Shown: piece by piece, positions 16,520 through 37,265 of the stretch
Layout of the letters: each line of letters begins with the position of its first letter
How positions within the stretch are numbered: the stretch's first letter is position 1
Source: Eubacteriales bacterium
GTDB lineage: Bacteria; Bacillota; JASUSC01
Assembly (NCBI GenBank): GCA_030446285.1
Contig: JASUSC010000009.1
Span: 1-37,265, forward strand
Reading direction: 5' to 3'
DNA: 37,265 nucleotides
Notes under the pieces: model-generated
The model's database searches: none
What the model was told of the DNA's origin: nothing
Seen by the model: only the letters and a program-made list of their open reading frames with translations
Translations under genes and position numbers: made by a program

Positions 16520-18361
16520 TTGAGTGGCCGCATCCCGGCAGATTTCGTCGATGAAGTACGCCAGGCCAATGACATCGTTCAGGTGATTTCCGAATACGTT
16601 CCTTTAAAAAAGAGCGGGCGTAATTTTGTCGGTCTCTGTCCCTTTCATCCGGAGAAAACTCCCTCTTTTACCGTCAGCCCCGAAAAGCAGATCTTTTACT
16701 GTTTCGGCTGCCATGAGGGAGGAGACGTGTTCTCCTTCCTCATGAAAAGGGAGGGGTTATCCTTTTGGGATGCCCTAACCTCCCTGGCCCGGCGAGTAGG
16801 GCTGGAAGTGCCTGCTACTCCGGGCCGGGACGGACGCTCCCGTTGGCAGGAGCGGGCCTATGAAATTAACGCTGCTGCGCGGGACTTTTTCCACAATTAT
16901 CTGCGGCAACCCGCGGGGCAGGCAGGGAGGGAATACTTTTTCCGGCGGGAGCTTACGGAAGAAGACTTAGAGAAGTTTTACTTAGGTTTTGCCCCTGCCG
17001 CCTGGGACGAACTGACCCGCTACATGACAAAGAAAGGTTTTCGCGAAGACGAATTGGTGCGGGTCGGGCTGGCGGTGGCTGGGAAAAAAGGAAGTTGTTA
17101 CGACCGCTTTCGCAACCGGGTGATTTTCCCGATAACCAACCATCGCGGCCAGGTGGCCGGCTTCGGCGGCCGGGTCCTGGACGATTCCCTGCCCAAATAT
17201 CTCAACTCACCTGAGAGCGACATCTTCAACAAAGGCCAATTGCTCTACGGTCTTTCCTTGGCGGCTCGGGACATCCGCCAGAAGGACGAGGTTATTTTAG
17301 TGGAAGGGTACATGGATGTAATAAGGGCCCATAAGCACGGTTTTACTAACACCGTGGCGCCTTTGGGAACGGCCCTCACCCGGGAGCAGGTGCGGCTCAT
17401 TACCCGCTACACTTACAACGTGGTCATGGCCTTTGACGCCGATACAGCGGGTCAGGCCGCGACCTTGCGCGGGCTGGATTTACTTCAGGAAGCGGGGTGC
17501 CGGGTGCGGGTGGTAACCGTGCCGGCCGGGAAGGACCCGGATGAGTTTCTCCAGAAGGAAGGCGGAGAAGCCTTTGCCCGGCTTCTCCAGCAGGCAGAGC
17601 CCCTTCTCCACTACCGGATCCGTCAGGCTGGTCAGGGTATAACCCCGGTTACGGTTGAGGATAAGTTGAAAATCCTCCACCGGGTGTTGCCAGCCCTGGT
17701 CATGCTGGAGAGTGAAATTCAGCTCAGCGAAGCCATCTACACAGCAGCGGATTTGATCGGCCTCACCCCGGAAGCGGTGAGGTCAGAAGTGGAGAAATTC
17801 CTACAAAACAAACGAAAAAGATGGATTGTCAGGGATAATTTGGCGCAAACAAGGAATAATAGAATAATGCCTGATTTGTACCCCACAGGGGCTATCGGCG
17901 AAAAGAAAAAGCCTGCCGGCCAGCCGGCCGGCGGACGGCAAAAGGCGGAACGGGAGTTGCTGACCTTGCTGCTAAATTATCCTGACTACCTTCCTCAGAC
18001 CCTTTCCCGGCTGGAAGCATATCCTTTTACTGATCCGCTGGCGGCAAAACTGTGGGAAGAGTTAAGGAAAGATACAACCGGGGAGAATCTAGTGGAAAGA
18101 CTTGTCGATCATTTTCGCGCGGATGAGGAAATATTACAGTTTATCAGCAGGTCAGCAATGACGCCGGTAGAGGAAAAAAAGGCGCCTGTGCTGTGGCGGG
18201 GTTACGTGGAGAGACTGCTTTCTGAAGAACGGAAAGCCAGGCTAGCCCAACTGCTCCAGGAGATAAAGGCAGCGGAGCAGGCCGGCAACTGGGAGAAAAT
18301 GCAGGAACTCCTCCTCCAGTACCGAACCTTGCTGCAGCAGGAAAGAAGTGGGGAAAATTGA
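16520..18361 (+). CDS. dnaG: DNA primase
   Basis: Makes RNA primers for replication. About 613 residues with an N-terminal CHCC zinc domain (Cys40, His43, Cys61, Cys64, in CPFHPEKTPSF and YCFGCHEGG), the catalytic core with a TOPRIM fold (VILVEGYMDVI and AFDADTAGQAA) and a C-terminal helical domain for binding DnaB. A GTG at 16511 is in frame, but AGGGTGAT at 16507-16514 sits at the right distance from the TTG at 16520, giving MSGRIPADFVDEV, the normal family start. A TATAAT at 16482-16487 may be its -10 box; no good -35 box is seen. The sigma gene follows 75 nt later. Confidence 0.95.
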   Translation: MSGRIPADFVDEVRQANDIVQVISEYVPLKKSGRNFVGLCPFHPEKTPSFTVSPEKQIFYCFGCHEGGDVFSFLMKREGLSFWDALTSLARRVGLEVPATPGRDGRSRWQERAYEINAAARDFFHNYLRQPAGQAGREYFFRRELTEEDLEKFYLGFAPAAWDELTRYMTKKGFREDELVRVGLAVAGKKGSCYDRFRNRVIFPITNHRGQVAGFGGRVLDDSLPKYLNSPESDIFNKGQLLYGLSLAARDIRQKDEVILVEGYMDVIRAHKHGFTNTVAPLGTALTREQVRLITRYTYNVVMAFDADTAGQAATLRGLDLLQEAGCRVRVVTVPAGKDPDEFLQKEGGEAFARLLQQAEPLLHYRIRQAGQGITPVTVEDKLKILHRVLPALVMLESEIQLSEAIYTAADLIGLTPEAVRSEVEKFLQNKRKRWIVRDNLAQTRNNRIMPDLYPTGAIGEKKKPAGQPAGGRQKAERELLTLLLNYPDYLPQTLSRLEAYPFTDPLAAKLWEELRKDTTGENLVERLVDHFRADEEILQFISRSAMTPVEEKKAPVLWRGYVERLLSEERKARLAQLLQEIKAAEQAGNWEKMQELLLQYRTLLQQERSGEN

Positions 18362-18436
18362 AGTTAAACTATTATTCGTTAAACACCGATATTTTAATTA
18401 AGCAAGTGATTACTGGCGAGGAAGGGGGGGATAAGT

Positions 18437-19546
18437 ATGGCCGAGAACATTTATGAGTTAGACGGGGTCCGGGAACTGCTGGAGAAGGGGAAGAAGAAAG
18501 GAGTCCTTACTTACGACGAAGTGGCCAATATGCTGCAGGGTCTAGACCTGACCGCCGAGCAGATTGACGATATTTATCTAAAACTGGCCAGCATGGGAGT
18601 AGATGTGGTACCGGAAGTGGCCGACCTTGAACCCGTAGAGGATCAGATAGTGGAATCCATTGGCGAAGGTATGGAAGAAGAAATTGACCTGGACGATCTG
18701 TCTATGCCGGAAGGAATCGGCATAGACGACCCCGTCCGTATGTATTTAAAAGAAATCGGCCGCATTCCCCTACTCACCCCTGAAGAGGAGATAGAGCTGG
18801 CCAAGAGAATGGAACAGGGTGACGAAGAAGCAAAACGGCGCTTGGTGGAAGCTAACCTCCGTCTGGTAGTAAGTATAGCCAAGCGGTATGTTGGTCGGGG
18901 ACTCCTCTTCCTGGACCTGATCCAGGAAGGTAACCTGGGCCTGATTAAGGCCGTAGAAAAATTTGATTACAGGAAAGGGTATAAATTTAGCACCTACGCC
19001 ACCTGGTGGATCAGGCAGGCTATTACCCGGGCCATCGCCGACCAGGCGAGAACCATTCGCATCCCCGTCCACATGGTTGAAACCATCAACAAATTGGTCC
19101 GGGTGTCGCGCCAGCTCCTCCAGGAGTTGGGGCGGGAGCCTACTCCCGAGGAAATTGCCAAAGAGATGGGAGTGCCGGAAGAACGGGTGCGGGAGATTTT
19201 GCGGATAGCCCAGGAGCCCGTGTCTTTGGAGACGCCCATCGGGGAAGAGGAAGACTCCCATCTGGGGGACTTTATCGAGGACGAAGATGCTCCTGCTCCG
19301 CCGGAGGCTGCTTCCTACACCCTCCTGCGGGAGCAACTGGAAGAAGTGCTGGATACCCTGACGCCCCGGGAGGAGCAGGTTTTGCGGCTGCGCTTTGGGC
19401 TTGATGACGGTCATTCCCGCACGCTGGAGGAAGTGGGGCAGCGCTTTGGGGTGACCAGAGAACGAATCAGGCAGATCGAGGCCAAAGCATTGCGCAAACT
19501 GAGACATCCCAGCCGCAGCAAGAAACTAAAAGATTTTCTGGAATAA
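18437..19546 (+). CDS. rpoD: Primary sigma factor SigA/RpoD
   Basis: Housekeeping sigma-70 factor. 369 residues, the short Firmicutes form with a reduced region 1.1. Region 1.2 starts at [18 protein letters not shown], region 2 has [36 protein letters not shown] and [16 protein letters not shown], region 3 has [15 protein letters not shown], and region 4 holds the -35-reading helix [20 protein letters not shown]. The ATG has AAGGGGGG upstream. The dgt-dnaG-rpoD order matches the macromolecular synthesis operon. Promoters called elsewhere in the window match the consensus expected for this protein. Confidence 0.97.
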
Positions 19547-27024: not shown

Positions 27025-27051
27025 TTATAATGCACTCTTCGGAAAGGGCGT

Positions 27052-27127
27052 GGGGATATAGCTCAGCTGGGAGAGCGCTTGGTTCGCATTCAAGAGGCCG
27101 GGGGTTCGAGTCCCCCTATCTCCACCA
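27052..27127 (+). tRNA. tRNA-Ala (CGC)
   Basis: Acceptor GGGGATA/TATCTCC, anticodon stem CTTGG/TCAAG (one G-T pair), loop TTCGCAT with anticodon CGC at 27085-27087, CCA encoded. An integrase gene ends 114 nt away and points at it, so its 3' part is a likely former attachment site. Confidence 0.95.
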
Positions 27128-27137
27128 TGAAAACGTT

Positions 27138-27180
27138 ACAGCGGCAAGGGTTTGCGCCCAAGCCGCTGTTTTTGTTTTTA
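27138..27180 (+). terminator. Terminator of tRNA-Ala
   Basis: 8-bp stem ACAGCGGC (27138-27145) with GCCGCTGT (27162-27169), inner GGG/CCC pairing, then a tract of Ts broken by one G. Confidence 0.8.
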
Positions 27181-27196
27181 TGGTTCGCAGGCGGAT

Positions 27197-27236
27197 TGCA
27201 AACATTTTGCAAACATGCAAACAACACTGCGAACAT
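27197..27236. repeat. TGCAAACA direct repeats between tRNA-Ala and the integrase
   Basis: TGCAAACAT at 27197-27205, again at 27208-27216, TGCAAACAA at 27216-27224 and a variant TGCGAACAT at 27228-27236. The 11-, 8- and 12-nt spacing and the position beside a tyrosine integrase suggest arm-type or core integrase binding sites. This is inference only. Confidence 0.5.
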
Positions 27237-27240
27237 AGGC

Positions 27241-28358
27241 CTACTTTTCTTTTTTCATCAACTGGTCGAAAACTGCCGCCCTGTCCTGCATCTCGGGTAA
27301 AACATGGCTGTAAATGTCCTGCGTGAAACTTGTCGTCGAGTGTCCGAGCCGTTCGGCAATCACCTTCACCGGTACGCCTTCCCGGAGCAGGAGGGTAGCG
27401 TGAGTATGCCGCAGATCGTGAAACCGGATCGGCGGCAGCCCGAAGTGGGCCAGCAGTCTTCTGAACGCCCGGTTCAGCCAGTCAGGATTGAAGGGACGAC
27501 CATCCTCCCAGCCACACACGAACCCGCCGTCGCTGTACGCCGGACCGAGTTTCAGCTTCAGTTCAAGCTGTTGCCGGAGGTGCCTTTTCAGTTCCTCCAG
27601 CACAGTCTGGGGGAGCTTCACCATTCTTTCGCTTTTCTTTGTTTTCACCGGGCGGAGGCGGAGTTCCCCTTCTTCGTAGTCGAGAGAGTTTTTGATATGT
27701 AGGGTACCAGTTTCGAAACTCACGTCCTGCTACCGGAGACCGCACACTTCGCCGCAACCGGAGACCGCCAGTGGCGGCGAGAAGAACAGGGATAAAAAGT
27801 TTTGTTTCCCGGCATCCGTCGAGCAGGAGGCCGACTTCTTCAGGCGACAGCCCCTGCGGTTCGAATCGGTTTTTCGCCGGCGGGTCTACTGCGTCAGCAG
27901 GATTTCTCGGGATGAGTTGCCATTTCACGGCGTGGCCGAGTGTTTCCTTCAGGACAGCGTAATGGTAGCGGACCGAAGTAGCGGAAAAGTCGCTTTTCGC
28001 CAGCTCTGAAACGAACCGCTGGGCGTGGAGCGGACGGAGCTTCGAGAGCAGGACGTTTCCGAGGATTTCCCGGATCTTTTTTCCGGCCCAGACATACGCC
28101 TGGTAAGTGGAAGATCGCACCCGTTGCGAAGCATATTCGCTCAACTAGCGGTCGAAAAATTCGGCGACGGTCATATCTGCTGGCTCTATAAATTCTCCTG
28201 TCTGCACTTGCCGGATAGCTTCTGCCAGCGCCGCTTCCGCTTCTTTCTTCGTCCGGAACCAGGAAAGCCACTTTTGTTTGCGTTTTCCTGTCACTGGATC
28301 ACGTCCAAGATCGAAAACTACGCTACTTGTTTCCTCGCTTCCGCACCTGACCACGCAC
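27241..28358 (-). pseudogene. int: Tyrosine recombinase/integrase, degraded
   Basis: Phage or integrative-element integrase. The order of parts is normal: AP2-like N-terminus (QVRKRGNK, FDLGRDPVTGKRKQKW), SAM-like core-binding domain (AYVWAGKKIREILGN) and catalytic domain with the LAATGGLR arginine, HDLRHTHATLLL, ERLGHSTTSFTQDIYSHV and the tyrosine in DIYSH. It is broken by frameshifts near 27755 and 28320 and by in-frame TAG codons at 28323-28325, 28145-28147 and 27730-27732, each where tryptophan is expected (RGNKW, FFDRW, GLRWQDV). The likely GTG start at 28358 follows GATGAGG. It ends toward tRNA-Ala, as integrases using a tRNA target often do. Confidence 0.88.
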
Positions 28359-28364
28359 TTTTCC

Positions 28365-28958
28365 TCATCCCCTTCCTTTTTCTAACAACACGATCGAGGC
28401 GACGACTGTGCCGAGGATTTCAACTTCGTTCCGTCTCTTTTGCTGCGGGCTCAAAAAGCAGGTTCGCAGGGACCAGCAGTATCCTCCTGCTGGCAGCAGA
28501 AATCTTTCTTAATTTTTGCGTCCCGACCGCAGGCGACGGGAGCAATGTCGCCTTCTTCTGCTTGTCCACGCCGGACGAGAGCATACCCACCGGCGACGAA
28601 ATGAGCAGCCGCCATGCTGTCGTCCTGAACTGGGAAAAGAAAAAGCGTCCCTTCTTCTAATTTTTTATTTTCTTCGGATTAGCAAAAACCGGATAATGAA
28701 CATAGGGAAAAAAACGGCCTGACACTGTCGGCCAGAGGGGTGGCAGTTCTTTTTCTGCCGACGAGAAAAGGTCGTTGCACCCGACGCCAAGAGCTTTCAC
28801 CAGCCGCCGGATCGTCTCTTCGTCGGGGAAGCGGGTTCCGCTTTCGTACTTGGCAATCGCACTGCGGGACACCCCGGCTAATTGAGCCAGTTCGCCCTGG
28901 GTGATTTTTCTTCTTTTTCACAGCTCCCGCAGTTTTTCAGCAAAACCTACTTATTCAC
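28365..28958 (-). pseudogene. HTH-S24 (CI/LexA-like) repressor, degraded
   Basis: Remnant of a lysogeny-type repressor. The N-terminal HTH reads, after an early frame loss, FAEKLREL-stop-KRRKITQGELAQLAG, then VSRSAIAKYESGTRFPDEE; the stop is TGA at 28918-28920, probably from CGA. The C-terminal half has S24 peptidase features: QDDSM (nucleophile serine), GYALVRRGQAEEGDIAPV, and in another frame EVEILGTVVASIVLLEK. At least three frame changes are needed. Its stop codon lies just ahead of the integrase ribosome site, so the two were one transcript. It is divergent from the small HTH genes. Confidence 0.8.
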
Positions 28959-29320
28959 TCCCTTATGATATCTATTCGGTTCCACAGTGGCAAAGTTTCT
29001 TTGAAAAATTTTTTCGAATTCAGTTTACCAATAGCAGCAAATTCGTTATGTATTTAGGAGTTAGGAGAGAGATGAAGAGGAGGAAAATTTTTCAAAATGA
29101 TTTCCAAACTGCTTTGCCAACCAAAAAAATGCGCAATAGCACAAGTAGAAAAAATACAATTTGGAACCTGTAAAAAGAAAGCCGAAAACAGAACGGCTAA
29201 ACCAATTTAATCGTTTTGTTCACGAAGGAGGAGGGGGAGTTTAAAAACAGTCATGTATTTATTCCTGCCTCCTTCTTTTTATCTTTAAAAAACACAGTGA
29301 AGCAAAAGAGGGTGTTCCCT
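28959..29320. other. AT-rich divergent control region
   Basis: No gene is seen. This lies between the repressor remnant (-) and the small HTH gene (+), so it should have held the divergent promoters and operators. A CAAAG-TTT-CTTTG inverted repeat is at 28991-29003, and a TACAAT box at 29155-29160 lacks a good -35 partner. Base composition is clearly more AT-rich than the core genome to the left. Confidence 0.5.
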
Positions 29321-29575
29321 ATGTTTGAGAAAGAAGACCGTGAACTGCCTGCCATCCTGAAGGTTGCCGACATTAAAAAACTTCTTCGGTGCAGTACAGG
29401 CAAGGCGTACGAGATTGTTGCCATTGCTGAGAGAACGGGTGTATTTCTTGTCGTTCGGGTTGGGAAAAGCTATCGTGTACCGAGGAACCCGTTCCTGGCG
29501 TGGTTGGCAATGCCGAAGAAAAGCGAAAGCGAAAAAGTGAAAGAAGGAAAGGAGTGGGAATGGTTGGCGAACTAA
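29321..29575 (+). CDS. Small HTH protein, excisionase-like
   Basis: 84 residues. The middle part (LPAILKVADIKKLLRCSTGKAYEIV...VVRVGKSYRVPRNPFLAWL) fits a MerR/excisionase-type winged helix (HTH_17-like), followed by a charged tail (about 63-84). The frame is open from 29216, but the ATG at 29321 with AGAGGGTG upstream matches the domain start. The position opposite a repressor and near an integrase fits a directionality factor or early regulator. It overlaps the next gene by 16 nt. It appears intact. Confidence 0.7.
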   Translation: MFEKEDRELPAILKVADIKKLLRCSTGKAYEIVAIAERTGVFLVVRVGKSYRVPRNPFLAWLAMPKKSESEKVKEGKEWEWLAN

Positions 29576-29739
29576 GGAGGAAACATTCGCCGGAGAAAGC
29601 TGCCCAACTGTTGGGGGTTTCCCGTGGTTTTCTCTACTACCACTTCGGGTGGACCATGGACAAAGTGGGGTATATATTTAGGAAGTACGGGAAAGCGCTG
29701 GGCGAAATAGTGCAGGAGTACGCCGGAGATAACGGCTGA
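29560..29739 (+). CDS. Small HTH protein, unknown
   Basis: 59 residues with a helix-turn-helix-like segment SPEKAAQLLGVSRGFLYYHFGW, then a short helical tail. The ATG at 29560 has AAAGGAGTGGGA upstream. It overlaps the end of the excisionase-like gene and is likely translated with it. No family is recognised. It could be an element regulator. Confidence 0.6.
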   Translation: MVGELRRKHSPEKAAQLLGVSRGFLYYHFGWTMDKVGYIFRKYGKALGEIVQEYAGDNG

Positions 29740-30703
29740 ACGGGGGCTGGCTGAAACGACGCTATAAATTCATTTGCGCAGAAGGTGGAATTTGGTGCGG
29801 AATAAGTGAAGTGTTAGAAAGCTATGCTCTTCAACCATTTTGCTTTTCTTTTTTCCTGGTGTGGCGATAGGTGTCATCGGAACGGTTGGTAAAAGGTTGC
29901 TACTCTTTAAGGTTTTAACAATATGTCGTTATCTACCCTGTGGAGAGGGGTAGTAGAAACTTCTTGCAGCTGGAAGGAATTGCATTTTCAATGTCGAATT
30001 TTGTAAAAGGGCTTTTGTGGCAAAAGTAGAGAAAATTTTAAAAACAGAAAATCTCAAATTAGGTTGGACAGGGCTGAGAGAAAGAAGGGAGTCGGGAGGT
30101 TAATGGGGCGCGGGTCGCTGGCTTAATTCTGATTTGGCAGGTAAGAATTAGCAGATACTTTCTGCTGTGTTGGATTGGTGTTTTTCCGAATTTGCTGTTT
30201 CAAACCTTGTTCTAAAAAATCAAAAAGGGTGCTGTTGTAACAGCCTTTGTCCCTTCAAACTGATTGCTACCTCCTGCGTTGTTTAGACATTCGGTGGATT
30301 CTGTGTTCGTCACAGCGATTGTGTCCAAATCACTACCAACCAAAAAGAATTAGATAAAGCCAGCTGTAACATCAAAATATTCCAACGAGTATTAAAAATT
30401 TTCCGGAGGGCAAAATGACCTCCGGTGTAGCCTTGGTACCTCTCGCCTTCATTTTTATTCTTCCTGCCGGTAGGCGCAGAAGATTTCGCTGTCTCACAGG
30501 GTGTAATTTAAGAGCCAGCAGGAGGCAGTAAATGCCGGGTACGTGCTGTGCAAGGTGTGTAAACCTTAATACCTTCCCGGATGGCTATTGCTCCGGCAAT
30601 TTGCAGGCGAGAAACCTGTCTAGGATAAGGGAGGTGGAATACTTACCAAACGGCTTTCCCTGGATTCCTGGACTTTTACCCATTTTTCAGGGAGGGATAA
30701 CTT
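29740..30703. other. Gene-empty stretch
   Basis: About 960 nt without a convincing gene in any frame. Small structures are visible: GCTGTT-GT-AACAGC at 30231-30244, followed on the - strand by T-rich sequence like a - strand terminator, and CCGGAGG (30403-30409) with CCTCCGG (30419-30425). An open frame at 30532-30813 has no ribosome site or protein-like composition and runs into the lipoprotein gene, so it is not called. Confidence 0.6.
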
Positions 30704-31222
30704 ATGAGACGTTTGTGCATCGTTTTTGCTACTCTGATTTTGGTTACGGCTTTGTTCCTTGCTGGTTGCGGTTCTCAAGAAAAGAACCAATCAACCCCAA
30801 AATCACCAGTTAGCACCAAGAAGTTGCCGGCTAATGCCGAAGAAGTCGTCAAAGCTCTAAAAGAAAGCGGACTTCCCATTGGCAAAGTCATGGTGTTTAC
30901 AGCAGAAAATGACCCCAATTCTCTTTTAGGAAGACCCGGGCAGTATACGAGTAAAGTTAACTTTGTTGACACCAGGATTAACGAGCCAGTTTCGGACAAA
31001 GACATTTCGGTAGAGAATGGCGGTTCGGTAGAGTTCTTTGCAAACAAAGAGGATGCGAAAAAAAGGTATGAGTATGTATCCGCTATTGCCAAGTCTGGCC
31101 CGCCAATGTTTGTTGAATACGACTACCTTGTGGACAAGGTTCTACTGCGAGTTTCTGGAAAACTTACACCCCAGCAAGCTGCGGAATATGAAGCAAAACT
31201 AAAAGAAATTATGATGAAATAA
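30704..31222 (+). CDS. Lipoprotein of unknown function
   Basis: 172 residues with a lipoprotein signal peptide: MRRLCIVF..., a hydrophobic core, and the lipobox LFLAGC, with Cys at about residue 22. A Lys/Ser/Pro-rich spacer follows, then a globular domain with VVKALKESGLPIGKVMVFTA, LGRPGQYTSKVNFVDTR, GGSVEFFANKEDAKKRYEYV and LTPQQAAEYEAKLKEIM. Hypothetical lipoproteins of this layout occur in Firmicutes, but no function is known to me. The ATG has CAGGGAGGG upstream. The frame is intact and protein-like, in contrast to its decayed surroundings. Confidence 0.82.
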   Translation: MRRLCIVFATLILVTALFLAGCGSQEKNQSTPKSPVSTKKLPANAEEVVKALKESGLPIGKVMVFTAENDPNSLLGRPGQYTSKVNFVDTRINEPVSDKDISVENGGSVEFFANKEDAKKRYEYVSAIAKSGPPMFVEYDYLVDKVLLRVSGKLTPQQAAEYEAKLKEIMMK

Positions 31223-31590
31223 ACATTGTGACAGTAAAGCGAAAGGGGATGTAGGCGGCGCTCTTCTCCATACTAAAGGTAGAGTTTCCGCGCCGCCGGA
31301 TTCTGATGAAGTTTGGGCAGCAATGGGCAGTCTGGATAACAGCGAATGGTGTAGGGCTGGCAACCTTTTTTGATTGAGTGGCAGAGTTGAGGCAAAACGT
31401 GAGCATAGGTGCTTAAAAAAACCTGTCTCTTGAGGTGGTTGTTACTCTGGGTCCTTGCTGGGCTGCCACCTCTTAGTAAATTCTGGCCTTTTGTTTTCGG
31501 AAACCTGAATTCGGTTTGATAGTATTTTTCCTGCTTACTGGTTTTCTTATACAATTATGTTAAAGTGTTCTTAGAAACGAGGCGGCAGAA
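31223..31590. other. Intergenic stretch with a long GC-rich inverted repeat
   Basis: No gene is called. GGCGGCGC (31254-31261) pairs perfectly with GCGCCGCC (31290-31297), with CTCT/AGAG pairing inside. No T tract follows on either strand, so it is not an ordinary terminator. A TACAAT at 31550-31555 could be the -10 box of the next gene, but no -35 box was found. Confidence 0.5.
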
Positions 31591-32142
31591 ATGGGCATAA
31601 GCGAGAGTAAGCTTATAGCGGACAGGGCAAACACTCAGAAAAGCACTGGCCCGAGGACGCCTGAGGGCAAAGCCAGGGTGAGGCTTAACGCCTTGGAGCA
31701 TGGCATCTTGGCCAGCGAAGTGCTAATTCAGGCGGGGGAAGGGGATGAAGAGGCCGAGGTCTTCGAGGCTGTTTTGGCTGAACCCAAGGACGACCTGGCT
31801 CCGGCCGGGGCTTTGGAGGAGCTGCTGGTGGGAAAGCTGGCTGTCATTGTCTGGCAGTGGCGGAGGGTGCTGCGGTACGAGCTCGGGGCCATGCGGGAGC
31901 AGACCGGCGAGGCTGTGGCCGTCTGGCGCAGAGAGCAACACACGGCCTACCTGCGGGCCAAGGCCATGCGGGAAGAATATCCGAGCTGCCACCGGAACGA
32001 TCCCTCCTTGAAGGAGTGGAAACACACTGAAGACCTGAAGGGGGAGCGGAAGGACGGTCGGAAAAGGGCTGAGGCCCTGGCAGAGGCCGACCCCCTTGTG
32101 GGTTCTGGCCGAGGCTTGCGAGAGAGGCTGAACGTCAAGTGA
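31591..32142 (+). CDS. Conserved hypothetical protein with STGPRTPEGKA N-terminus
   Basis: 183 residues. The N-terminal motif ANTQKSTGPRTPEGKAR followed by LNALEHGILASEVLI is a recurrent signature of an uncharacterised bacterial family. Then comes a helical region (ALEELLVGKLAVIVWQWRRVLRYELGAM) and a charged tail. No catalytic residues, membrane helix or signal are seen. In my knowledge such genes are often found near mobile DNA, as here. The ATG follows GAGGCGG. The tail (about 150-183) may have been altered by the decayed transposase region that begins downstream. Confidence 0.7.
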   Translation: MGISESKLIADRANTQKSTGPRTPEGKARVRLNALEHGILASEVLIQAGEGDEEAEVFEAVLAEPKDDLAPAGALEELLVGKLAVIVWQWRRVLRYELGAMREQTGEAVAVWRREQHTAYLRAKAMREEYPSCHRNDPSLKEWKHTEDLKGERKDGRKRAEALAEADPLVGSGRGLRERLNVK

Positions 32143-32291
32143 CTTTTGGGGCTGAAGGGCGCCGAGGAGGGGTACGACTTTGATCTGGGACCTATGCCAA
32201 ACTCCGTGCTAACCACCAGAAAAGCAGCCACCCAGTGGCGAATAAATAAAGAGAACTGGAAACTTTGCCAGCTTGGTGGTGGTTCAAGGAG

Positions 32292-32880
32292 ATGGTGGGA
32301 TACAAACTAACAGGGCGCAAGATGTTCTATGTGTTCAACTTGGACGAACGCGTCCCCCAGGACCACATTCTGAAGAGGATAAGCAAGGTGGTGGACTCGA
32401 GCTTCATTCTTGCGACCTTGTGCGTCCCTACTACAGCCACACGGGAGCGCCTTCGATCGACCCTGTCGTGATCTTCAAGATGGTCCTGCTCGGCTATCTC
32501 TCCGGGATAACGAGTGAACGCAAGTGGGTTCTTGAACTGCTGCCTTAATTCAGCCTTCATCTGGTTCCGGGGGCGTGCCTAGACGAGATGCCTCCAAACC
32601 ACAGTATCCTCTCCAAGACAAAGGGCGCGCGATGGTGTGCGAAGCCTACGAGCAGTTCTTCGCAAAGAGGCGGGCCTTGTGAAAGGCAACACAAGGTCTA
32701 CTTAGACGCCATCTTTCTCGAGGCCAACGCTTCTTTGGACTCTCTTAAAGGAGTGCGGCATGGTCCAGACGTTCAAGTACACACCGGAGCAATACCTCCA
32801 TCAAGATTCGCGTTTGAGTTTGGTGCTCTGGCATCCGAAATTTATAGACTTTTGGCAACAGGCCCTTGTTGATTATTAAC
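32292..32880 (+). pseudogene. IS1182-like transposase fragment
   Basis: The N-terminal part of a DDE transposase is spread over three frames: FYVFNLDERVPQDHILKRISKVVD, then VRPYYSHTGAPSIDPVVIFKMVLLGYLSGITSERKW, then MPPNHSILSKTK, with EAYEQFFAK, YLDAIFLEANASLDSL and QTFKYTPEQYLH. At least three frameshifts are needed and the C-terminal catalytic half is absent. The order and spacing match the IS1182 group N-terminus. No terminal inverted repeats were identified. Confidence 0.75.
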
Positions 32881-32913
32881 ATCATCCATGTTCTTTGTGG
32901 GGGGAATAGGAGG

Positions 32914-33978
32914 TTGCAGTGGTTTTACGACGACACAGGCTACTACAGCTATGTGCTCCTTAACGCAGGCGAGGTTCAGTTTAAAAAAGTGCAGGAAATC
33001 CTCAAGAGAGAAGGGCTCCAGGTATTGCTGGCTGGCAGGAGTTACCGCCCGGCCAGCAATGGCCGCCAGTACCAGTGGTACATACGGGTTGCGGATGAGA
33101 GTGGGAGGCACCCCCGGCCCGACAGGATAGCGAGGGCTCTTGCTGCTTGCGAAGCTCAGGAAGAGGACATAAGGAAGCTGCAAGCCGAATTAAGTGCGGT
33201 AGAGCGCCGTCTAAATGCTGCAGAGCACCGCTATCAGGCTACCAAAGAGCGGCTGGAATGTGTGCTGCGCCAGTACCAAGAGCTACAGAAAACCTATAAC
33301 GAGACCCGCCGGGAACTGCAAGAGTGCCGGGAAAGAGCAGGCCTCCTCGAGTCGCAGCTGAGGCAGATTCGAGAGTCAGGGCTGAAACCCGAGGAAATAG
33401 CCAAGATACGCGAGGAGTATGAGGGGATTGTCCGAGATCGCCAGAGATTGGCGGAGAAACTGGCAAAAACGGAGAATGAACTGAATTCACTGTTGAGTGA
33501 ATATGACAGGGAAGTCCAGGAGCGTGATCGAAAGATTGTTGCCCTGGAAGAGAGGTGTGCTGACCTCCAAGGGCAGGTCGATGAACTGGCCGCGGAGAAT
33601 GCTCGGCTTGCCACTGAAAAAGAGAAAATGGAAGCTGTGCTGGAGACTAGGAGGAAGGGGAAACCTTTGAAAGACCTGTTCTGCCGAATGTTTGAAGTTT
33701 TCTTGCCTAATGTCTGCTTCCTTAGGGGCTCGCTGGACACACTCTGGCATGAAGTGCCCGACCCCGTTGACGCGGTGCGGGTGCTAACTACGCTGGACCA
33801 GTTAAAGGGCAAGCGGGTAAGGAGCACGGAAGAAACTGGTAAGTGGTTGGAAAGGCGCTTCCAGGGAGATTGGCGTCTTTACTATAAACGGTGTGATGAT
33901 GGGCGCTATAAGGTCCTGATATCACATAAGAAGACTCAAGATACGGACATAGAGTGGCTGAAGAGCGTGGACTGCTGA
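32914..33978 (+). CDS. Coiled-coil protein with possible RelE-like C-terminal domain
   Basis: Not a recognised named family. About 354 residues: an N-terminal globular part (about 1-75, YVLLNAGEVQFKKVQEILKREGLQVLLAG, GRQYQWYIRVA), a long coiled coil (about 90-265, near-continuous heptads), and a C-terminal domain (about 270-354) ending GDWRLYYKRCDDGRYKVLIS-HKKTQDTDIEWLK, which resembles the strand pattern of RelE/ParE-type folds. The frame opens at TTG 32866. TTG 32914 is chosen for the GGGGGG 10-15 nt upstream, and GTG 32953 is possible. The 5' end abuts the transposase fragment, so the protein may have lost its original start. Confidence 0.65.
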   Translation: MQWFYDDTGYYSYVLLNAGEVQFKKVQEILKREGLQVLLAGRSYRPASNGRQYQWYIRVADESGRHPRPDRIARALAACEAQEEDIRKLQAELSAVERRLNAAEHRYQATKERLECVLRQYQELQKTYNETRRELQECRERAGLLESQLRQIRESGLKPEEIAKIREEYEGIVRDRQRLAEKLAKTENELNSLLSEYDREVQERDRKIVALEERCADLQGQVDELAAENARLATEKEKMEAVLETRRKGKPLKDLFCRMFEVFLPNVCFLRGSLDTLWHEVPDPVDAVRVLTTLDQLKGKRVRSTEETGKWLERRFQGDWRLYYKRCDDGRYKVLISHKKTQDTDIEWLKSVDC

Positions 33979-34209
33979 GGCGAGGACTTCAAGCCAGCAG
34001 AACCAACCCTTTCTGATATCTGCCCGATACGCCCGAGACCCTGCAGCCTCTCAGGGCAGATGGTGTTCTGGTTCCGATACTGCATAAACATTGCTTTGCC
34101 TAGACGTAGGCAGTCGTTTTGCCATCTTCGTTGGTGGCCTTCGATTGCTCCTGCGGTTTGGCTGACACAACTGGCCACCCCATGGCTCTCTTGCTTCGGT
34201 TTCCAGCAC

Positions 34210-34471
34210 TTACGCGTCATCTATATCCGCCTGCAACTCGTCGAATAGCTCCTCTATCTCCCAGTTCTCCACTGTCTCTCCGAGATCAACTACCCTTGTG
34301 AGTGCCTTCCGGCCACCAAACCCGCCGCCGGCGGCTGTCGCGCAGCTCGCATAGGCCGTAGTCCCCAGGTCTGATGTCTTCGTAGTCTTCTTGCGGAGTG
34401 GCCGCCGGGAGCAGACGAATTTCTAACTTAGCGGCCAAGACGCCTCTTTCTCGTCTAGTGTACGATGCCAA
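34210..34471 (-). pseudogene. Unrecognised gene fragment, frameshifted
   Basis: Two adjoining frames on the - strand read like protein: LAAKLEIRLLPAATPQEDY...IRPGDYGLCELRD, then FGGRKALTRVVDLGETVENW and EIEELFDELQADIDDA before a TAA at 34210-34212. The break is near 34320. No family is recognised. Its 5' end runs antisense into the IS701-like fragment, so the true start is lost. Nothing is seen from 33979 to 34209. Confidence 0.4.
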
Positions 34472-34560
34472 GAGCCGCTGGTGGACGGAGCAGAATTACC
34501 GCCAGCTTGAAAACGAACTGGGCCTTAACCATTATGAAGGGTGCACCTGCTAGGGATGGC
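34432..34560 (+). pseudogene. IS701-like transposase C-terminal fragment
   Basis: The + strand reads SRLVYDAKSRWWTEQ-NYRQLENELGLNHYEG, then an in-frame TAG, then GWHHDVTL. This matches the conserved C-terminal region of IS701/DDE transposases (typically WRIEQDYRQLK-ELGLDHFEGRSWRGWHHH). Only about 40 residues remain. An IS110-like fragment begins 15 nt further on, on the opposite strand. Confidence 0.65.
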
Positions 34561-34574
34561 ATCATGATGTAACT

Positions 34575-35463
34575 TTAAGCTACCACCTGCGATTCCAAAG
34601 TTACCCGATAGCCAAGTTCTGCCATGCGGCGCAGGTGATGCTTAATTAACCGCTGAGGATTAGGCTGGTCGAAAAAGTTAGGCCCCAGTTCCCGGTAAGT
34701 GCTCCCTTTAGCCAGTAAATGGTAAGCTATAACCAATATGCTGTGCGCTACAGCTACTAGTACCTGTTTCCTGCCCCGCCGTGCAGCTAAACGACGATAT
34801 TGGGCAGCAAGATATGTCCCTTTTGACTGCGATGCGGTCCAAGCTACCTCCACCGGGGCTTCGCGCACCCAAGGGTTGCCCTTTCGAGTACGCTCCGTCA
34901 TACCTTTACCGGCACTCTCGTTGTTCCCCGGACAGACACCTGTCCAAGAAGCTATGTGCTTGTGAGAAAGGAAAACGCTCATGTCGATGCCGCCTACAAC
35001 TATACTCGTCCATGTACCATGTTTCTTTACTCCGGGAATGGTCATCACCTGCCCCAGCTTCTTCGCGAAAGGGCGCATCCGCTCCTCAATTTCGGCCTCC
35101 ACGCGAGCAATGGCTTGCCCCAGAAACTCAATGTGTGCCGAGTGCTCCTGGAGCAGGAAGCGATGATGAGGTCCCCCTACACCGGCCAGCGCTTTTTCCA
35201 CCTTGCCTATCTTGGGGTGTAGCGAGCCTCTGGGCCAGCTCCGCCAGAGCATAAGGGTCGCTTGTGTCCTGGGCCAGCGCGCTGAGGGTGGCTTGCCCGG
35301 AAGTACCCTTAATGTCGCTGGCCCAGGAGGTAAATTTGGTGTTGACGTCTTCTAAAACCTTCTGGATGCGATTGATGACGTGAGTTTTCTCCCCGCCAAG
35401 CACGCTTACTCGCCCCTTCCCGTGAGATGGTTTGTGAGCCGTCCCAGGCCGCCGCTGAAGCAC
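34575..35463 (-). pseudogene. IS110-family transposase, 5'-truncated and frameshifted
   Basis: The C-terminal Transposase_20 half is well kept: QVMTIPGVKKHGTWTSIVV, HIASWTGVCPGNNESAGK, RTRKGNPWVREAPVEVAW, RRGRKQVLVAVAHSILVIAYHLL. It ends at 34575. Upstream in another frame (break near 35230) is the linker region KTHVINRIQKVLEDVNTKF and TLSALAQDTSDPYALAEL. The N-terminal RuvC-like DEDD domain (about 150 residues) is not found. IS110 elements encode a bridge RNA next to the transposase; no intact copy can be claimed here. Confidence 0.82.
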
Positions 35464-36221
35464 AAAAGTTCTGCCCAGCGTGCTCCCGCAAGACTGGGTA
35501 ACACTCCGTGGTTGCTGGCGCAGTGGCCAGCTTAATACTCAAAACCGGACTTTTTCGTACCAAGAGTTGACGAGCTTTTTGGGACGGCTCAAAGATAGTG
35601 TAGCAACAATTTTCATACCCCGGTGGTGGTGTGAGTGCCATGTCCTAATCGGGCCGCCGCACGTGGCGGGTCGGCGGCCTCCGCGGCGGGTCGGCAGGGC
35701 GGCTAACGCGTCGTTTAGGCCAAAGGGTCCGGGGAGTGTGCGGCTGCGTTATTCGCAAAGGCAGCGGAACGACTGAAACCTGCTCGGGTGACCATGGTGG
35801 AGCCGGCGATGCTCTGCCAGCGGCTTTCGCGCCGCCAGAGGGTTTAAACATGGTATGGTGTCTCATTAAAGCCCAAAGGGATTCTGTCTATCCAAATTTA
35901 CAGAGTTGCCTTTAAAAGTCGAAAACTGGCTGTTAATGGAGGAAATTCACTGTTAGTGTAGATAGTATAGTTATTATGTGGATGGCCTGTAAAGTTTTGC
36001 AACCATGGCATGATGGATAACGACGCAGACTTAGCCTTTGATTAGGAGAGTTTTCAAAATGCGCGTTCTTCCTGTTAAGAAGCATCACCAAATCAGAAAC
36101 GGTTAACGAAGTTATAAAAAATATTTGGTGTCTAGATTTTACCAATTGGAAGCCTGGAGGAAGCCAGATTTTCAGGGTGCGGTTTGTTTGACATACCCAA
36201 GTGAGGAGGGGGAGAGCTTAA
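35464..36221. other. Intergenic stretch with a GC-rich palindromic block
   Basis: No supported gene. At 35650-35710 a very GC-rich stretch repeats GGCGGGTCGGC units, with inverted copies of GGCCGCC type around them, and can fold into strong stems. The rest (35860-36200) is AT-rich. A TTGACA at 36188-36193 has no matching -10 box. Confidence 0.5.
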
Positions 36222-36880
36222 TTGGGTAATATCGGATTTGTTTGAAGATAATCGAGAAAGAATTGGGCAGTGGATAGATGAGAATCTATTTCCAGAAGTC
36301 ATACTCTATCCTTCAAAGAAAGAGGATGAATGGATACAGGAAGACGGGCCAGAACCCGCCTCCAGTTCGTGGTACTGCGCCACTGTGTACCAACTTTCGG
36401 CAGGCGGGAAACTTTCGGACATAATCGCACTCACTAAAGAAAAAATAGCCAGAGTGGCGGAACATCCGAAAGAACAGACGGTAACCCTGCCGGACGGCAG
36501 ACAGATAGCCCTAAAACCGTTTAGAGGTACACATCATTCCAGTTTACTTCGCCGAAGACGGCGGAATAGTAGACAGCTACATGGAAGCAGCTTATTTTGT
36601 GCCCACAGAATACCTGGAAAACTAGACGGAAGAAGCTGGCGTATGGCAGACCCCGGTTTCCTTCAAGTCGGCGAACACCGGCCGGTGGGTTTCGAGCTAT
36701 CTGGACGTGGTGGAGGACACGCTGGAAGAAGCCTTCAAAAAGGCGTACTGTATAATAAAAACTGCGCCTCCTGTAAAACACAGAAACGCGAACAACGTTT
36801 GCCTGCAGTTGTACAAAAAATTTGTTCTACCGGGAGAACCGGCCAGAAAATCCGGTAATTCCAGCAAAAACACAAGAAAA
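36222..36880 (+). pseudogene. Broken hypothetical gene upstream of mazEF remnant
   Basis: Protein-like sequence in two frames. The first (about 36238-36525) reads RERIGQWIDENLFPEV, WYCATVYQLSAGGKLSDI and EQTVTLPDGRQIALKPF. After a shift near 36530 the second reads IIPVYFAEDGGIVDSYMEAA and YFVPTEYLEN, then TAG (36623-36625), then VWQTPVSFKSANTGRW and YLDVVEDTLEEAFKKAY. A likely original start is TTG 36222, behind GGAGGGGGAGAG, with another shift soon after. The family is not recognised. The second frame stays open into the antitoxin gene. Confidence 0.5.
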
Positions 36881-36892
36881 GAGGTGAAAATT

Positions 36893-37042
36893 ATGAATTC
36901 AAAACTTATAGAACAAGCAGAAAGAAACGAACTTGAAGCACAACTAAAAGAAGGTTACCTTGAACTTGTAGAAATACACCAGAAAGAAGCTGAGTTCTTC
37001 TTCCCTGCCCAGTATGAGGTGGTGCAGGAAAAAGGAGATTAA
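36893..37042 (+). CDS. MazE-type antitoxin remnant (toxin-binding tail)
   Basis: 49 residues with a good ribosome site (GAGGTG) 6-7 nt before the ATG. The sequence EAQLKEGYLELVEIHQKEAEFFFPAQYE resembles the C-terminal toxin-wrapping part of MazE/EndoAI antitoxins. The N-terminal ribbon-helix-helix DNA-binding half seen in that family is absent, so this is probably a truncated antitoxin. It directly precedes the mazF remnant with a 5-nt overlap, the normal mazEF order. Confidence 0.6.
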   Translation: MNSKLIEQAERNELEAQLKEGYLELVEIHQKEAEFFFPAQYEVVQEKGD

Positions 37043-37165
37043 GCGTGGAGACATTTTTCTCCTAGATTTCGATCCTGCAAGGGAAAGTGAGCAAGTTTCC
37101 GTCCTGCCTTGGTCATTCAAAATAACGTGGGCAACAAATGCGGGTCCGTCAAGTTTTTTATGTAA
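37038..37165 (+). pseudogene. mazF toxin remnant, frameshifted
   Basis: The MazF/PemK opening KRGDIFLLDFDPARESEQ is in one frame. After a shift near 37095, the next frame has RPALVIQNNVGNKCG and stops at 37163-37165. These two motifs are the conserved first third of MazF endoribonuclease. No standard start codon lies in frame (ATT at 37038), and the remaining two thirds are missing or unrecognisable up to the window end, so it cannot be an active toxin. Confidence 0.75.
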
Positions 37166-37265
37166 ACCCCAATTGATAACCGACTCATAGATGACGCTCT
37201 ATTTTCTCTCTCCGAACAATATGATTAGCTGAGTAAGTATCGGGCCCCAGTTCTTAACCCTGGTA

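Follow-up and report, generated by a model that had tools for sequence, protein, structure and literature searches.

A rare coiled-coil protein family with a predicted RelE-like C-terminal fold, encoded beside zorA in distant relatives and alone among transposon remnants in one bacterial contig

RelE-like folds have been reported as parts of larger defence proteins. In PMC11229360, Cami1 is described as an effector of type III CRISPR systems that has a CARF domain, responds to cA4 signalling and carries a RelE fold. The RTL domain of the CoCoNuT protein CnuH is presented in PMC11090510 as RelE-like on structural grounds, no sequence similarity being present and its activity being left open, and ArmD of the ARMADA II system has an N-terminal RelE-like domain according to the excerpted text of PMC12458937. 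The Zorya systems are built, as far as the available sections of PMC11890865 and PMC8565338 describe them, from ZorABCD in type I, with ZorE in type II and ZorF and ZorG in type III, and the same sections propose that ZorAB forms a membrane proton channel helped by ZorC and ZorD, by ZorE or by ZorF and ZorG. Effectors with a RelE fold are already known from defence settings, whereas the family described here, its architecture of an ACT-like domain and a coil, and its place at zorA appear to be new. Among the papers listed in searches of the open-licence literature, none was seen to report an accessory gene at zorA that is divergent or codes for a RelE fold, and the words RelE, Zorya and ZorA are absent from the available text of a BREX survey (PMC12839542).

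The gene considered here lies in a stretch of 37,265 nucleotides (the window, that is, the whole stretch of DNA analysed; Table 1) and belongs to a rare and undescribed three-part family, in which a predicted ACT-like domain, a coiled coil and a C-terminal domain with a predicted RelE-like fold follow one another.

Table 1. Features of the gene and of its surroundings, in window coordinates
Feature	Position	Strand	Remark
tRNA-Ala (cgc) bordering the element	27052..27127	+
Tyrosine integrase, split across two frames	27241..28144	-	profile match
DUF772 transposase fragment, upstream of the gene	32273..32548	+
Gene: ACT-like domain, coiled coil and RelE-like C-domain	32914..33978	+	354 codons, probable TTG start
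N-terminal domain, ACT-like/ferredoxin-like	32914..33162	+	model, beta-beta-alpha-beta-beta-alpha, pLDDT 93.7, pTM 0.83
Coiled coil, about 171 residues	33166..33678	+	heptad periodicity
C-domain, RelE-like topology	33661..33975	+	model, pLDDT 86.5, pTM 0.80; RelE-like core about 33703-33975
Arg 72 of the C-domain model	33874..33876	+	invariant in 9/9 aligned members
Ser-His-Lys 88-90, end of last strand	33922..33930	+	Lys in 9/9, Ser in 8/9, His in 7/9 members
Small acidic protein remnant, frameshifted	34219..34390	-	related stretches flank the G294 homologue on both sides
IS110-family transposase remnant, downstream of the gene	34575..35252	-	only the Transposase_20 part matched

The stop codon of the frame occupies 33976-33978 and its longest open reading begins at TTG 32866. 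We favour TTG 32914 as the start, since the relative found in genome G294 (locus L033) has a GTG at the equivalent place (LQWFYDDTGY in the window, VDWYYDDSGY in G294); this start is likely, though unproven because an AGGAGG abuts the TTG with zero spacer and because the G294 frame is also open farther upstream of the aligned GTG. The longest stop-free run in 32001-36500, of 376 codons, is the gene's own frame, and in 300 first-order Markov randomisations of the same segment, used as a chance control, the longest run had a mean of 165 and a maximum of 340 codons. As the two proteins align over 348 codons at 43% identity, we could confirm that the window frame is a real gene, homology being a stronger proof than run length. 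Differences from G294 at the three codon positions (0.42/0.37/0.60) are greatest at third positions, which fits past purifying selection on the gene.

The surroundings carry a tRNA-Ala gene and a split tyrosine integrase (27052-28144 together), so the region resembles a decayed integrative element, and the gene looks as if it sits in a degraded, tRNA-Ala-linked one; no att direct repeat was seen in 27040-37265 and the far end of this tRNA-targeting remnant was not found on the window contig. An earlier note, made from this DNA alone, had described an open frame of about 354 residues surviving between broken transposases, with some 175 residues of coiled coil: the frame is uninterrupted, transposase remnants do flank it on both sides, and the coil was recovered at residues 85-255. 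Its further argument, that survival among pseudogenes suggests selection, holds weakly, for the past alone: no relative close enough was found to reveal selection on the window gene after the decay of the element. Pfam, NCBIfam and PHROGs were all without a match for another frame of this region, of 183 residues (31591-32142, opening RANTQKSTGPRTPEGKARVRLNALEHG), whose start resembles, by eye, that of a protein encoded downstream of zorD in locus L056, inside 17954-19468.

Models of the two terminal domains were built from nine-row alignments. For the N-terminal domain the best structural match is an aspartokinase (5yei_F, Z 7.7, rmsd 2.3, 68 aligned) and the top-ranking rows are of the ACT or ferredoxin-like type, including the ACT-like GL3; all have Z below 8, for which reason the ACT-like reading is suggestive only. 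CARF is absent among the structural matches listed, an absence that excludes nothing. The coil has a hydrophobic periodicity of 3.5 residues that was equalled by one of 2000 shuffles. For the full-length sequence, the matches in Pfam, PHROGs, NCBIfam and PADLOC are to coiled-coil families and nothing more specific; homology with SMC, Rad50 and JetC was rejected despite low E-values, as these matches fall mainly within the coil.

The C-domain model runs (alpha)-beta-alpha-alpha-beta-beta-beta-alpha, with a short first beta strand. Using VIA-align, we obtained 199 chains with Z >= 2; each of the 50 that were listed is a toxin of the RelE/ParE/YoeB/YafQ/HigB type or Cami1, including some titled only "toxin" or "hypothetical" that we take to be RelE-type toxins. 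The best match is HigB2 (5ja9_D, Z 8.6, rmsd 2.6, 87 aligned), a score that barely exceeds the range of 7-8 typical of this tool for models without a clear match, and Foldseek, whose best E is 0.05, placed Cami1 in its first row. Sequence comparison gave no such likeness: no Pfam RelE/ParE match for nine family members at E<=10, no NCBIfam RelE/ParE match for the window C-domain, nothing credible in a PDB sequence search with the C-domain and its profile, and hhalign probabilities of 0.1% against 6 YoeB frames (6/7 loci tried, of 9 fetched) and 0.2% against 21 ParE frames (21/25 loci, of 37 matches), a negative outcome. Because Foldseek is weak, Pfam is without a RelE/ParE match and hhalign is negative, we speak of a predicted RelE-like fold and not of a proven member of the RelE/ParE superfamily.

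Eight positions are invariant in the nine C-domains aligned (Pro16, Ser24, Leu42, Leu45, Arg72, Tyr74, Val85 and Lys90). By eye, Arg 72 matches the Arg position of the motif R[LI][IV]Y, present in 6/6 YoeB frames. The most divergent member, that of G412 (L054), keeps the Arg, Tyr and Lys and has lost the Ser, the His and the QxxDIxWL motif. The earlier note had guessed at a RelE/ParE fold from a strand-rich, basic C-terminus and had proposed two computational checks. Structure prediction with fold search returned a RelE topology, with strands in the model, while the HMM search against RelE/ParE families found no match in nine members, so that the guess stands for the predicted fold and fails for sequence profiles; the basic character is only mild (pI 8.7 in the window) and is not kept in the slightly acidic G294 counterpart (pI 6.5).

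The family is present in one other genome of the window's phylum, G294, and in alphaproteobacteria, whose members have, relative to the window protein, an additional N-terminal segment and a shorter coil. When 398 genomes of the window's phylum were searched with the C-domain, G294 came up at E 7e-34. Searching by pattern with the single window protein, we found nothing in a collection of 84,980 species, and a plasmid search gave one useful match, in Azospirillum oryzae (E 0.02), the other rows shown being at E 0.7 or weaker. A three-row C-domain alignment returned five loci from the same collection and yielded the members of A. tabaci, an Afipia bin, an alphaproteobacterial bin and A. oryzae COC8, to which profile searches then added G451, G558, G611 and the remote G412. 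We infer that G451, G412, G446, G459 and G463 are alphaproteobacterial. Matches numbered 6/145 among relatives of A. tabaci at 1e-5, centre included (one a fragment and one false), 3/289 in the class of the Afipia bin at 1e-4, centre included, and 1/397 around G294 at 1e-3, namely G294 itself.

No relatives were found in viral contigs and phage records, the phage matches having been dismissed (the 20 listed of 114 cover the coil alone). Further matches, nine besides the window (best E 3e-4), all lie in the coil, and separately twelve more genomes matched with a best E of 0.001. Several candidates were dropped: G137 (L013), by eye a RecD-like helicase; G452 (L048), by eye a transposase; G441, a fragment of 27 residues; and three weak A. 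brasilense matches, of which the one inspected adjoins hipA. The frame of G218 (E 0.009) has internal stops.

The gene is divergent from an adjacent zorA in seven of seven genomes, alphaproteobacterial or related to A. tabaci, that have a copy in a readable context (G398-G401, G451, G558 and G611). Six of these copies are intact; the seventh, in G451, carries a frameshift, as does its zorA. The G412 member is part of the C-domain alignment and was excluded from this count because its frame starts at base 89 of the contig (L054). The ZorA1 profile matches in all seven gene-bearing genomes; L037, the one locus scanned with all of the ZorA1, B1, C1 and D1 profiles, matches every one of them, and in L032, L036, L038, L055 and L056 those of the four Zor profiles that were scanned matched, the remainder being read by eye. 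Counting the KACC 14407 plasmid as a second A. oryzae record, gene and zorA are separated by 2-54 bp in six of eight records and overlap, by longest start, in the other two (up to 38 bp).

Gene and ZorA have diverged together: across six loci their pairwise identities correlate with r 0.99, which the true labelling alone of 720 attains, a comparison made with no control gene and which may partly mirror species relatedness. For ZorB the value is r 0.95 (4/720 labellings); G451 was omitted from this analysis because it is frameshifted. Scanning 78 genomes with ZorA1 gave 22 rows, reduced to 12 loci, seven with the gene and five without, after removal of six short MotA-like frames (302-334 codons, L068-L073), a 170-codon fragment (L079) and second pieces of counted frames (L076-L078). 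The five long ZorA loci without the gene (one in G446, two in G459 and two in G463, three genomes whose selection did not depend on the gene) lack it within about 1.2-1.4 kb upstream, their sole weak match being in a coil (L074, E 0.96). G446 serves as the one clear type I control, since only its locus has a ZorB-like frame next to zorA (by eye). The gene is an optional companion of ZorA loci, and no frequency can be read from the seven positives because these genomes were included for carrying it.

Neither the window genome (G000, 82% complete) nor G294 has a ZorA1 match at E<=1e-20; the Zorya link was therefore seen only in the alphaproteobacterial relatives, and the window copy is an orphan. 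As its distant relatives adjoin a Zorya gene, the protein resembles an undescribed defence-linked protein, which lends independent support to the defence protein listed among the options of the earlier note. Overall, that note is partly supported: its intuition on the fold appears good and a putative defence role comes through the relatives.

Three further observations concern these loci. In A. oryzae (L032, L039) the gene lies between zorA and genes for BrxHI, BrxD and a PglZ-domain protein, in a composite BREX-Zorya locus. At ZorA loci of G459 and G463 it is a different small gene that is divergent from zorA (L059 542-1120 and L064 2870-3475), with a length by longest start of 192 codons in the one and 201 in the other; divergent companions of zorA may thus be a recurrent feature. 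In the Afipia locus (L038, 10428-19604), a serine recombinase, a ParB/methyltransferase-type gene and phage-like genes were seen by eye beside the Zorya cassette, which suggests a mobile defence island.

The reading that we prefer, tentatively and at somewhat less than even chances, is that the window protein belongs, as an orphan, to a rare family of signal-gated RNase effectors which, like Cami1, target translation, and which in alphaproteobacteria form an optional arm of type I Zorya. The N-terminal part would be a small sensor or dimerisation domain, and the effector would be kept inactive until a signal arrives at this domain or at the coil. Once released, the RelE-fold domain would act at the ribosome and translation would stop, as with Cami1 in type III CRISPR. 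For members linked to Zorya, the trigger would come from the ZorAB complex, beside which the protein would be a second, optional arm in alphaproteobacteria; in the window genome the partners would have been lost or never present, leaving the gene alone amid transposon remnants. A more general statement, that some Zorya systems carry a RelE-like coiled-coil effector stopping translation once ZorAB senses infection and that the module also travels free of Zorya in mobile elements of another phylum, is one we consider rather unlikely.

The chief rival, itself on the unlikely side, is that the RelE-like domain has no catalytic activity and is instead a module binding the ribosome, RNA or a protein, the whole being an adaptor or regulator that would, for example, tune ZorAB or the expression of zor genes from the divergent promoter region. 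A divergent position is a usual place for regulators, and the short distances to zorA given above agree with this, as do the want of any sequence match to active RelE families and the fact that catalytic residues of the C-domain are not established; however, the members scanned matched no DNA-binding family, and the invariant polar residues sit on the last strands of the C-domain model, where RelE toxins carry theirs.

A different function is conceivable in the window's phylum, where the protein could be the toxin of a toxin-antitoxin pair that stabilises mobile elements, being neutralised by a small acidic neighbour; we regard this as improbable. Two small acidic stretches (pI about 4) flank the G294 homologue, one of them sharing its open frame just upstream, the window gene has a broken relative of them next to it, and both contigs have an integrase (by profile in the window; by eye, about 3 kb off, in G294). 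Against this, nothing related to the acidic protein was noticed when the alphaproteobacterial loci were read by eye, and the window has an open toxin-like frame next to an acidic gene that is broken, a state that an active toxin should not tolerate. By eye, no adjacent antitoxin gene was recognised in the alphaproteobacterial loci. In the window, an open gene beside a broken acidic one better fits a quiet protein, signal-dependent or inactive, than a free toxin. The plasmid search with the small acidic protein was without match. In G294 the homologue and the acidic stretches adjoin a gene for a membrane-type protein (L033, 8394-9833), in which Pfam weakly matches a glycine zipper and reading by eye points to a possible stretch of restriction-endonuclease type.

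Least probable of all is an ordinary coiled-coil structural protein in which the RelE topology is a chance likeness of a small alpha/beta domain: the Foldseek E-values are weak and sequence matches are to generic coiled coils only, but the 50 VIA-align entries listed are RelE-type toxins or Cami1, the polar residues are conserved and the relatives are linked to a defence gene.

If the effector reading is true, the linked RelE-fold protein would add to Zorya an arm for shutting down translation, comparable to the CARF-RelE proteins of CRISPR, and would allow one to test by what means a sensor in the membrane sets off a toxin directed at the ribosome in the cytoplasm. The family would also gain a name, the profile libraries searched recognising only its coiled coil.

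Compared with the described systems, the window protein shares with Cami1 a plan in which a sensor-type part at the N-terminus is linked to a RelE fold at the C-terminus (8phb, Z 6.9, 86 aligned) and, in its relatives, a defence context, while Cami1, in the part of its description available, has CARF and cA4 where the window protein has a predicted ACT-like domain and a long coil. With CnuH and ArmD, as far as the available sections present them, it has in common a RelE-fold domain within a defence protein, detected in CnuH likewise by structure only; those are helicase proteins, whereas the window protein is a coiled coil without helicase. The toxins HigB2, YoeB, YafQ and RelE resemble it in the predicted fold of the C-domain and, by eye, in an invariant Arg in the matching strand, and differ in that the window family has extra domains, is without sequence-profile similarity to them and has no canonical antitoxin recognised. 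By contrast with the ZorABCD set of type I Zorya, in which the available part of PMC11890865 does not name it, the gene is optional and the window genome is without a ZorA1 match, yet the alphaproteobacterial members of the family directly adjoin zorA, in divergent orientation.
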